Positions 15,508 through 17,652 of a stretch of 64,000 nucleotides of DNA are shown here, piece after piece (the stretch's first letter is position 1; every line of letters starts with the position of its first letter). The position numbers were made by a program, and so were the translations under genes. The stretch comes from Aliikangiella coralliicola (GTDB lineage Bacteria > Pseudomonadota > Gammaproteobacteria > Enterobacterales > Kangiellaceae), in the NCBI RefSeq assembly GCF_007004725.1, contig NZ_ML660164.1, positions 1-64,000 on the forward strand. Reading direction: 5' to 3'. Below the pieces are notes generated by a model. It did not search any database. It saw only the letters and a list, made by a program, of their open reading frames with translations, and was not told the DNA's origin.

Positions 15508-16341
15508 ATGCGCTATGATTTTCACTGTCACAGTCATTTTTCAGATGGTGCGCTATCGCCCGAAGCATTGATTGATTATGCAATAGATAAAGAGATAGAT
15601 GTTCTCGCGCTAACGGATCACGACTCCACTGGTGGATTAGAAAGCGCACGTGAGCAAATAAAAGCGATTGGCGCTTCGCTTCGCTTACTCAATGGTATAG
15701 AAATATCCGCTCTGACCGAATTCGGTGAAATACATATTGTTGGCCTCGATATCGATGCTGAAAATGAAGGGTTAAAGAGAACCCTGGCCATTCAACAGAA
15801 GAATCGCTGGAGCAGGGTTGAGGAGTATGACGTCAAATTAGCAAAAATAGGCGTCAAAGGCATATTGCAAGAAGTTCGCAACCAGGCAGTGGAAGTGGCA
15901 ACTCGACCGCATATTGCCAGGGCCATCGTTAACCTGGGTTTTGCAAAAGATATGGATCAAGCATTTAAGCGTTACATTGGAAAAAAAGGGCGTATTAAGG
16001 TTTCCAAAAGTTGGGTACCCATGGCAGAAGCGATTGATTTGATAAGACAAGCCGGTGGAATTTCTGTGCTGGCACATCCCACGAGATACCCGCTATCAAA
16101 TCGTAAATTGAGTTTGTTAATCGAATCATTTAAGTGCGAAGGTGGAAATGCGATGGAAATGGCTTACCCTAGTTTAAACAGGGATAAGTCCGATTGGTTG
16201 AAAATCCATCGAGAAAAAAATGGACTGCTCGCCTCAAGCGGTTCTGATTTTCATTACCCCAACCTGCGATGGACTGATTTGGGAAGATTCCCCAATCTGG
16301 ACCCTTCAATTCCTCACGTAAAAGACGAATTGATAAAATAA
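15508..16341 (+). CDS. rnm: PHP-domain nucleotidase / 5'-3' exoribonuclease AM
   Basis: The 277-residue protein belongs to the YciV/TrpH PHP family, which cleaves 3',5'-bisphosphonucleotides and matures 5' ends of RNA. PHP metal ligands are visible: DFHCHSHFSDG at residues 4-14, ALTDHDSTGG near 35, and the HPTRYP and GSDFHYP motifs towards the C-terminus. The ATG at 15508 follows AAGGTA at a somewhat long distance. It shares a neighbourhood with yciB, yciI and yciO, as in other gammaproteobacteria. The mobile element that follows sits between it and yciO. Confidence 0.95.
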   Translation: MRYDFHCHSHFSDGALSPEALIDYAIDKEIDVLALTDHDSTGGLESAREQIKAIGASLRLLNGIEISALTEFGEIHIVGLDIDAENEGLKRTLAIQQKNRWSRVEEYDVKLAKIGVKGILQEVRNQAVEVATRPHIARAIVNLGFAKDMDQAFKRYIGKKGRIKVSKSWVPMAEAIDLIRQAGGISVLAHPTRYPLSNRKLSLLIESFKCEGGNAMEMAYPSLNRDKSDWLKIHREKNGLLASSGSDFHYPNLRWTDLGRFPNLDPSIPHVKDELIK

Positions 16342-16351
16342 AAATAACATG

Positions 16352-16621
16352 CTAGGGCGTGTTTATCTTTCGTTCTTTGAGATTGTTGCGGCTAAAATTT
16401 TGCCAATCAAGAAGAGCGGAGCGTGGTTTAGTTATTCTAAATGAGCGACAAACGACGCAGAGTGGCGAAATTTTAGCCACAACCCGAAGGGCCGGGTCAT
16501 TTTTTCGCCCAGCTGCGTTAAAAGATGAACCTGTAGAATGGCTACATGGCTAATCTTTCGCCTTGCTGGACAAAAAAATGACCTCGGCAATCTCAAAGAA
16601 CGAAAGATAAACACGCCCTAG
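16352..16621. mobile_element. 270-bp MITE-like element with perfect 34-bp terminal inverted repeats
   Basis: The 34 bases at 16352-16385 are the exact reverse complement of 16588-16621. Both ends begin with CTAG: the structure is C-TA-GGGCGTG...CACGCCC-TA-G, which fits insertion into CTAG with a TA duplication, the habit of IS630-type elements. The interior has no transposase but is full of nested inverted repeats: GGCTAAAATTT (left) with AAATTTTAGCC (16467-16477), GGTCATTTTTT with AAAAAATGACC, and TGTAG-AATGG-CTACA. Two short frames inside, one per strand, both begin MFIFRSLRL because of the inverted ends and are not genes. The transcript would fold strongly. Confidence 0.8.
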
Positions 16622-16774
16622 TGACCGAGTCAGAAATAAATAGAAAAACGAGTCTATTTAAAACCGGCTAAAAGATATCGACTGATAAACGCCGAATATC
16701 CATGCTATGATTGACTTAGTAAGCTAATCTATTGATTTGGTTAATATTTAACCAAGCACATAAGGCTTTAAACA

Positions 16775-17398
16775 ATGACACAGTTTTACGAAATCCATGC
16801 GCAAAATCCACAACTAAGATTGATCTCTCAGGCCGTTGCGTCAGTTCGTAATGGCGGTCTGATCGTTTATCCGACAGATTCTGGTTACGCATTGGGCTGT
16901 CATATTGGAGATAAAAAGGCGCTAGACAGGATCCGAAAAATAAGAAAGCTTGATAAATCACACAACTTTACGCTGGTGTGTCGAGATCTATCTGAACTCG
17001 GAATTTATGCCAGAGTCGATAATACGTCTTTTCGAGTATTAAAAAATCATACGCCCGGGCCTTATACCTTTATTTTGAGGGCATCACCGGAAGTACCGAA
17101 TCGCCTTCAACATCCAAAAAGAAAAACCATCGGAATCAGGGTCCCTGACTCGCCAATTGCTCTAGCGCTGCTTGAAGCGTTAGGTGAACCGCTGATGAGT
17201 ACCAGTCTAATTCTCCCGGAAGAAACCTCGGCATTGGCAGATCCGGAAGAGATTTATGAAAAGCTAAAAGGAAAGGTGGATCTCGTGATTAACGGAGGAT
17301 TTGTCAGTGATCAGCCAACTTCTGTTATTGATATGTTAGACGGATTTCCAAAAGTCAGCCGGTACGGTGCCGGTAATCCTGAGGCATTTGAGTCGTAG
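16775..17398 (+). CDS. yciO: YciO/Sua5/YrdC family protein
   Basis: The 207-residue protein has the YrdC fold used to make threonylcarbamoyl-AMP for tRNA t6A. Conserved pieces are GGLIVYPTDSGYALGC, KSHNFTLVCRDLSEL, PGPYTFIL and the SRYGAGN tail. It resembles YciO more than TsaC, and YciO has no firmly known main role. The ATG at 16775 has a poor ribosome binding site. It lies 153 bp beyond the mobile element and upstream of a tRNA gene. Confidence 0.93.
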   Translation: MTQFYEIHAQNPQLRLISQAVASVRNGGLIVYPTDSGYALGCHIGDKKALDRIRKIRKLDKSHNFTLVCRDLSELGIYARVDNTSFRVLKNHTPGPYTFILRASPEVPNRLQHPKRKTIGIRVPDSPIALALLEALGEPLMSTSLILPEETSALADPEEIYEKLKGKVDLVINGGFVSDQPTSVIDMLDGFPKVSRYGAGNPEAFES

Positions 17399-17507: not shown

Positions 17508-17594
17508 GCCAGAGTGGTGAAATTGGTAGACACAGGGGATTCAAAATCCCCCGCTAGTGATAGTGTGCCGGTTCGAGTCCGGCCTCTGGTACCA
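17508..17594 (+). tRNA. tRNA-Leu (anticodon CAA)
   Basis: An 87-nt class II tRNA. The acceptor stem GCCAGAG pairs with CTCTGGT, making a G1-U72 wobble at the end. The D-loop contains GGTAGAC. The anticodon stem is GGGGA/TCCCC around a loop with CAA. A long variable arm follows, then the T-arm GCCGG-TTCGAGT-CCGGC. CCA is encoded at 17592-17594. It reads UUG codons. Confidence 0.97.
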
Positions 17595-17652
17595 TCCGAA
17601 TTGAAGGTAATTGCTTAACATCCAAATATATTCCTATATATCGCTTCCAGAG

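Follow-up and report, generated by a model that had tools for sequence, protein, structure and literature searches.

The interior of a MITE is usually seen as a remnant of the parent insertion sequence (IS) or as chance DNA lying between two ends. An autonomous partner in the same genome is common for MITEs without being strictly required, since genomes can lose it. ISAba12 is an IS5-family element. Strong hairpins and TA ends are described in general terms in MITE reviews (PMC10969869; PMC2229807). Among described elements, MITEAba12 is likewise short and gene-free, with inverted ends matching an IS, and is thought to be moved in trans; it differs from the element presented here by its 9-bp duplications, its 16-bp ends and its length of 111-114 bp, and the accessible part of its description holds no conserved, covarying interior common to families (PMC6382973). 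The Correia/NEMIS, ERIC, RUP and CIR elements share TA termini and strongly folding transcripts with our element, and CIR also has two arms joined through a linker, but they measure ~100-200 bp and are set apart, by description, through other ends and other hosts (PMC2229807). RUP is tied to IS630-Spn1 (PMC2229807).

Other comparisons concern the ~100-nt hairpin module found within the element. REP/BIME repeats (GTAG and CGTC families) are intergenic hairpins, often in inverted pairs, but are 20-40 bp long, the GTAG families being tied to RAYT tyrosine transposases, and the accessible part of their description includes neither a TA duplication nor 31-bp ends (PMC3733652). A REP is a 20-40-bp palindrome tagged with GTAG or CGTC at one end, which does not describe ~100-nt modules in a 264-bp element. 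MRSC-65-2, a mobile hairpin with over 20,000 examples, resembles the module by its covarying long stem, its many copies per genome and its supposedly selfish nature, but is a single long stem with a UYCCGG repeat (PMC11109978); TYCCGG occurs in 0 of 136 module rows (alignments A1, A2 and A3, which overlap). The same study reports 250 mobile or repeat candidates in all, and the module may have been seen before among them, without its transposon plan (PMC11109978). The 101-bp R178 repeat of P. fluorescens (PMC2718517) might be related to the module, to which it is likened by description and not by sequence. No description of the module was found in the open-licence full-text literature by searches with terms and short sequence words, a corpus that mostly excludes subscription journals.

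The window analyzed here, a stretch of 64 kb, contains between a PHP-domain gene and yciO an element (Table 1) that, judged on its sequence, is a real and mobile MITE, gene-free, with 31-bp ends and inserted at a duplicated TA. The explanation that we favor, and consider probable, is that it is a MITE with a hairpin module selected for its shape, probably moved in trans by an IS5 transposase of the NF033580 type. It is ordinary as a MITE; what makes it unusual is its membership in a MITE superfamily that spans the phylum, is defined by structure and appears to lack a description in the literature consulted.

Table 1. Coordinates in the window of the element, its parts and the flanking genes.
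Feature	Position	Strand	Basis or remark
Element, 264 bp, gene-free	16355..16618	.	sequence reading, repeat scan, copy comparison
Left TA of target duplication, inside CTAG	16353..16354	.	
Right TA of target duplication	16619..16620	.	
Left terminal inverted repeat, 31 bp, GGGCGTGTTTATC...	16355..16385	+	shares its final base with module A
Right terminal inverted repeat, 31 bp, fully complementary to the left repeat	16588..16618	-	
Module A, sense on + strand	16385..16483	+	covariance model R1, 86.1 bits, E 2e-19
Central turn CCC-GAA-GGG between modules	16483..16491	.	read from sequence
Module B, sense on - strand	16490..16588	-	covariance model R1, 73.4 bits, E 3.3e-16
Flanking gene, PHP-domain protein	15508..16341	+	PF02811; ORF
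Flanking gene yciO, Sua5/YciO/YrdC domain	16775..17398	+	PF01300; ORF

The original prediction described positions 16352-16621 correctly, with two perfectly complementary 34-nt arms between PHP and yciO, both neighbors being recognized by their Pfam domains. These arms form the only perfect inverted repeats of at least 20 bp within 1 kb in the whole window. However, the outer 3 bp of each arm (CTA and TAG) belong to the target CTAG; the ends proper are 31 bp long, and the predicted TA flanks correspond to a 2-bp duplication. The element begins with GGGCG and ends with CGCCC. Layered inverted repeats and the lack of a gene had also been noticed, rightly: no ORF of at least 100 aa overlaps the element, whose minimum free energy (MFE) of -137.7 kcal/mol (z = -15.3) was equaled in 0 of 200 shuffles. 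A non-autonomous element and a structured RNA had been offered as alternatives. Mobile it is, but the choice is not either/or, the element carrying a conserved, covarying structure: in its interior, one ~100-nt hairpin module is present twice, in inverted orientation, on either side of the CCC-GAA-GGG turn.

The same architecture recurs elsewhere. Among 58 distinct end-to-end stretches of 20-420 bp, many of which are paralogs, 34 measure 266-270 bp including both TAs; the interiors differ in sequence, and many share the fold. Once set to one orientation, most hairpins present a common head, roughly CAAGGCG - stem - TAG(T/C)(T/C)ATTCTA - stem - AACGCAG. Comparison of 33 representatives from different loci gave identities of 34% and 32% for the arms, which between families are mostly unrelated in sequence and yet pair, and of 70% and 75% for the heads, the latter values being inflated by the placement of head segments by best motif match (the invariant columns given below come from a MAFFT alignment instead). 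The mean pairing energy is -27.1 kcal/mol for the two arms of one module and -8.3 for swapped arms; 83 of 1028 swaps reach the level of the weakest own pair, which indicates that some arms are still related. The representatives are a manual selection from modules 92-102 nt long, from which other modules that passed, such as L089_1 and L095_0, and near-identical paralogs were omitted. The seed of 29 modules omits L081_0, L088_1, L163_1 and L186_1, the anchors of which were misaligned.

In A1, the plain MAFFT alignment of these 29 modules, the 33 named pairs are formed in 89.5% of cells, a proportion that falls to 58.9% in shuffled and to 37.5-42.2% in slid alignments; the modules were excised by MFE folding before alignment, a step that favors paired arms, and the shuffled and slid controls are to be read with it. 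Changes on both sides affect 31 of the 33 pairs, and the other two never vary. Double-change cells number 310 versus 103, and the covariation score is 0.798 versus 0.225 for shuffled and 0.13-0.18 for slid alignments. RNAalifold, supplied with no structure, returned a nearly identical fold with double changes in 33 of 35 pairs. For 46 modules from genomes outside the seed, pairing reaches 89.0%, the score 0.644 versus 0.196 and double-change cells 390 versus 138; for 61 hits of the order, seed members included, the values are 90.0%, 0.821 versus 0.219 and 691 versus 220, both alignments being fitted to the model and leaning towards it. Four loop-flanking bases, C25, G28, C75 and G79, are identical in 29 of 29 and 46 of 46 modules and in 59-60 of the 61. 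The weak pairs of A1 are 23-81 (unpaired in 17/29) and 33-70 (15/29). At the foot of the apical hairpin the commonest pair is G-U (22/29, 27/46 and 40/61), and tandem G-A/A-G mismatches are present in 15 of the 29 modules. Because the arms change together while a few internal-loop bases stay almost fixed, the module most likely persists through selection on its shape. Some members depart from the common outline. In L006, L010 (both modules) and L012 an extra stretch of 15-16 nt, a potential small hairpin (e.g. TTCGG...CCGAA), directly follows the head CAAG, as if the internal loop tolerated a side arm. Three 315-bp copies in genome G013 (L069, L070 and L071) contain an insertion of ~45 nt at the apex of one module.

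The covariance model R1 retrieves exactly the two modules from the window and nothing at E<=1 from 50 other loci (160,619 bases, autonomous ISs included). At E<=1e-5, its E-values being rough, it recovers modules within the order from 181 of 394 genomes, representing 50 of 114 genera, and across the phylum from 126 of 398 genomes, representing 60 of 213 genera; by hand count, the best E is 1e-10 or lower in 126 of the 181 positive genomes of the order. At most 10 candidates were scored per genome under strict filters, so copy numbers are lower bounds. The loci examined as elements are the best-scoring 30 of the order and 25 of the phylum together with 11 further regions, a set that lies above the weak hits near E 1e-6. 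A second, inverted module is present in 49 of the 55 best-scoring loci (21/25 for the phylum; 28/30 for the order, L189-L218). The end motif stands 30-32 nt before the module in 98 of the 107 hits of these loci (42/46 and 56/61, respectively), and was met at 26-38 nt in 132/4000 and 101/4000 random control windows. The spacing between modules is 6-8 nt in 48 of 50 pairs. The 11 further regions were obtained from model hits, except L246, which came from the end pattern; ten of them are elements 262-282 bp long that have such ends, and L249 has both modules and no end seen by the pattern.

Starting from the end pattern alone, 28 loci were collected, with a module beside the end in 12, of which 5 are seed members; L187 has a weak hit elsewhere and 15 have none. 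With no module adjoining the end in 16 of these 28 loci, not every pair of ends requires one. Palindromes made of ends only also exist, as do elements in which a single module was detected. Two 232-bp stretches, L170:1501-1732 (G163) and L171:1287-1518 (G150), show the same kind of ends around an unrelated interior without a model match; other cargo thus seems to use these ends.

The recurrence of fold and spacing in distant bacteria despite sequence change suggests that the shape itself is functional. That a gene-free element retains so precise a plan throughout a phylum, its arms covarying and its loop-flanking bases hardly changing, would be difficult to account for if its shape had no function. 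We see even chances that these elements form one very large, undescribed superfamily across Pseudomonadota, made of non-autonomous transposons defined by their folded cargo and not by sequence. In such a superfamily, the inverted halves would yield a junction of nearly constant length with a module ~31 nt from each end, the loop-flanking bases of which are almost invariant. The ends would adapt to any IS5-type transposase at hand, and the fold, persisting throughout, would thus be the selected part. It would be a device of structured RNA or single-stranded DNA, either promoting its own spread or rendering its insertions harmless. The old question of why bacterial MITEs form strong hairpins becomes testable, with a defined module, four bases and a spacing at hand. 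With modules present in 181 of 394 genomes within a single order, many intergenic repeats that are presently unlabeled could also be annotated by means of the covariance model.

Regarding the working of the element, each half comprises, going inwards, a transposon end, ~31 nt, one ~100-nt module and the central turn. The two halves being inverted, the whole could adopt, as RNA or single-stranded DNA, a symmetric junction of end stem, module A, mini-hairpin and module B. One module is sense on each strand, so that a transcript or single strand coming from either side would meet a sense module first. The module could help the element spread, acting in the transposition complex at a fixed distance from the ends, or favor host tolerance by rendering read-through transcripts harmless; these two roles are put forward jointly and tentatively, with somewhat less than even confidence. 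The former is conceivable because a sense module lies inward of each end, the latter because a sense module faces both sides and because G-U pairs and tandem G-A mismatches suit RNA. Against the module being needed for transposition stand ISs without it and the single-module and end-only versions. 

These same RNA-like pairs at the apical foot and in the tandem mismatches, and the sense module met by transcripts from both sides, would also befit RNA insulators or regulators that fold in the transcripts of neighboring genes, protect, process or terminate them and are retained for their benefit to the host. We consider this rather unlikely, since the flanking genes show no bias towards a convergent arrangement (14 convergent, 17 divergent, 34 tandem and 28 of 93 unclassed, with a crude ORF caller) and no Rfam 15 family is matched above cut-off. 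The Rfam search of the window element produced a single chance-level SNORD59 match (19.3 bits, cut-off 45), and that of 20 module loci only tRNA above cut-off, a sub-threshold mir-153 match (28.6 bits, cut-off 54) overlapping a module of L224. A simple terminator role, taken separately, is disfavored by the lack of enrichment between convergent genes in these counts. None of these results points to regulation of PHP or yciO by the element.

Mutation could in principle maintain arm pairing on its own, as template-switch correction of quasi-palindromes during replication changes both arms. In the outer 34 pairs of ten copies in the host genome, 12 of 18 deviating cells are indeed double Watson-Crick changes, the pattern expected if the two ends of a copy correct each other, a count drawn from few copies whose changes are inherited. 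Over the whole fold of the same copies, however, one-sided deviating cells outnumber two-sided ones (45 vs 21), single changes being common inside. Such correction would also close the internal loops, which persist with almost fixed bases, and it leaves the spacings of 30-32 nt and 6-8 nt unexplained. We regard it as distinctly improbable and retain selection on shape as the preferred reading of the module.

The enzyme that moves the element was sought with the profiles PF01609 and NF033580. PF01609 gave 11 matches in 4 of 8 genomes, and a scan of those loci for end patterns led to an IS in G040, in which a DDE transposase lies between the inverted ends TA-GAGGCTGTTGATC and TA-GAGGTTGTTGATC, 878 bp apart. 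The protein is an IS5-family transposase (NF033580, 275 bits for a cut-off of 110) with DUF4096 and DDE_Tnp_1 domains, and relatives of it are present in 31 of the 197 genomes searched within the order. Among 30 fetched transposase loci, both ends could be placed in 8, 811-888 bp apart around the transposase. The 16 ends of these 8 ISs, located with a pattern modeled on MITE ends, match the element end at 12-16 of 17 positions, and the closest to the window element, GGGCGTGTTGATCTTTC, has one mismatch over 17. Only 15 of the 4,445 TA sites in the 8 IS loci reach 12 matches, 14 of them being IS ends and one not; two of the 16 IS ends do not directly follow TA. The TA target is shared with the element, and CTAG surrounds 4 of the 8 ISs. 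The proteins of three of them (G040, L097 and L100) exceed the NF033580 cut-off. Presumably, these ISs belong to the IS427 subgroup. They differ from the element by their transposase gene, their length and the lack of a module, none being detected in autonomous ISs by R1. Since ISs of the IS5 group carry ends close to those of the element, its mobility is attributed to this group, and the most likely mobilizer is an IS5-family transposase (NF033580) acting in trans, a mode of movement that we infer from end similarity.

TA duplication and CTAG insertion also fit the IS630 family. The original prediction had attributed the element to an IS630-type transposase, and the TA duplication, common to the IS5 group, and the CTAG insertion at this locus agree with mobilization by this Tc1/mariner-like family. 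The ISs found with near-identical ends nevertheless encode IS5-family transposases, in searches run with IS5-type profiles, and the IS630 attribution appears very unlikely. Returning to the IS5-family mobilizer, no PF01609 or NF033580 match was found by profile search in the host genome, so the host copies may be stranded or use another enzyme. In the family, NF033580 matches 6 of 40 genomes, and the one match above cut-off is a chimeric reading frame of G013. This frame (L054:1441-2088) joins a DUF4096 N-terminal part to a DDE_Tnp_1_3 part and adjoins the end TAGAGCGTGTTGATC. No IS with exactly the window end GGGCGTGTTTATC was found, the pairing of ends in four genomes giving short palindromes and lone ends. 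The named genome collection scanned for TAGGGCGTGTTTATCTTTCRTT yielded 18 stretches, all from one MAG. One genome, G129, holds both an IS (L097/L245) and an element (L244), with ends that are alike and not identical.

The host genome (7.04 Mb in 22 contigs) contains ten full-length copies including that of the window, the other nine being 83-98% identical to it, in addition to one diverged element (L011), halves and lone ends. TA flanks both sides of nine of the ten copies, and the tenth has TG on one side. The base before TA is C or T in 9/10 copies and the base after it G or A in 10/10. C before and G after are combined in only 3/10, one of which has TG replacing one TA. The general target rule is pyrimidine-TA-purine; the predicted insertion at TA, at this locus within CTAG, is borne out, but the preference for CTAG is weaker than claimed. 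The two ends of one host copy tend to carry the same variant (TTTACC in L006, TTTGCC in L009), a hint that both ends of a copy change in concert.

In 7 of 7 genomes of the genus, the gene after PHP is yciO. The gap between them spans 436 nt in the host; in each of the six congeners it measures ~90-233 nt, which leaves no room for the element. The element is thus multicopy and missing from the orthologous gap of its relatives, and the outcome that would have spoken against mobility in the original prediction, a single copy fixed at the orthologous position, is contradicted. A MITE is accordingly recognizable in the short length, the lack of a transposase gene, the terminal inverted repeats, the target duplication, the multiple copies and the empty sites in relatives, an autonomous partner in the same genome being the one usual feature that is missing, as judged by PF01609 and NF033580. 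That the element is immobile and regulates the PHP-yciO pair, a role for which only the position 11 nt past PHP and 154 nt ahead of yciO would speak, can practically be dismissed given the empty gaps, the nine other full-length copies and a sole sigma-70-like match near yciO (16682-16711) that lies downstream of the element, such matches being at chance level.

A DNA search with the window element returned one weak plasmid match (Methylophaga frappieri) and none in phages. Other members matched more plasmid records, namely 4 for L229, 1 for L194 and 13 for L248; L248 gave no match in the E. coli genomes searched, nor L229 in phages. A gene is listed beneath 1 of the 18 best plasmid places, in a gene table that is incomplete. 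The plasmid carriers belong to Vibrio, Pseudoalteromonas, Catenovulum, Azotobacter, Pseudomonas, Halomonas and Methylophaga. Two TA-flanked palindromes were also noticed: L067:558-587 (G006:C6:4057-4086), of 30 bp, is made of TA and two 13-bp ends, and L068:483-523 (G013:C6:31982-32022), of 41 bp, contains little beyond two transposon ends. In the window itself, the stretch 17513-17595, just downstream of yciO, resembles a tRNA gene by eye.
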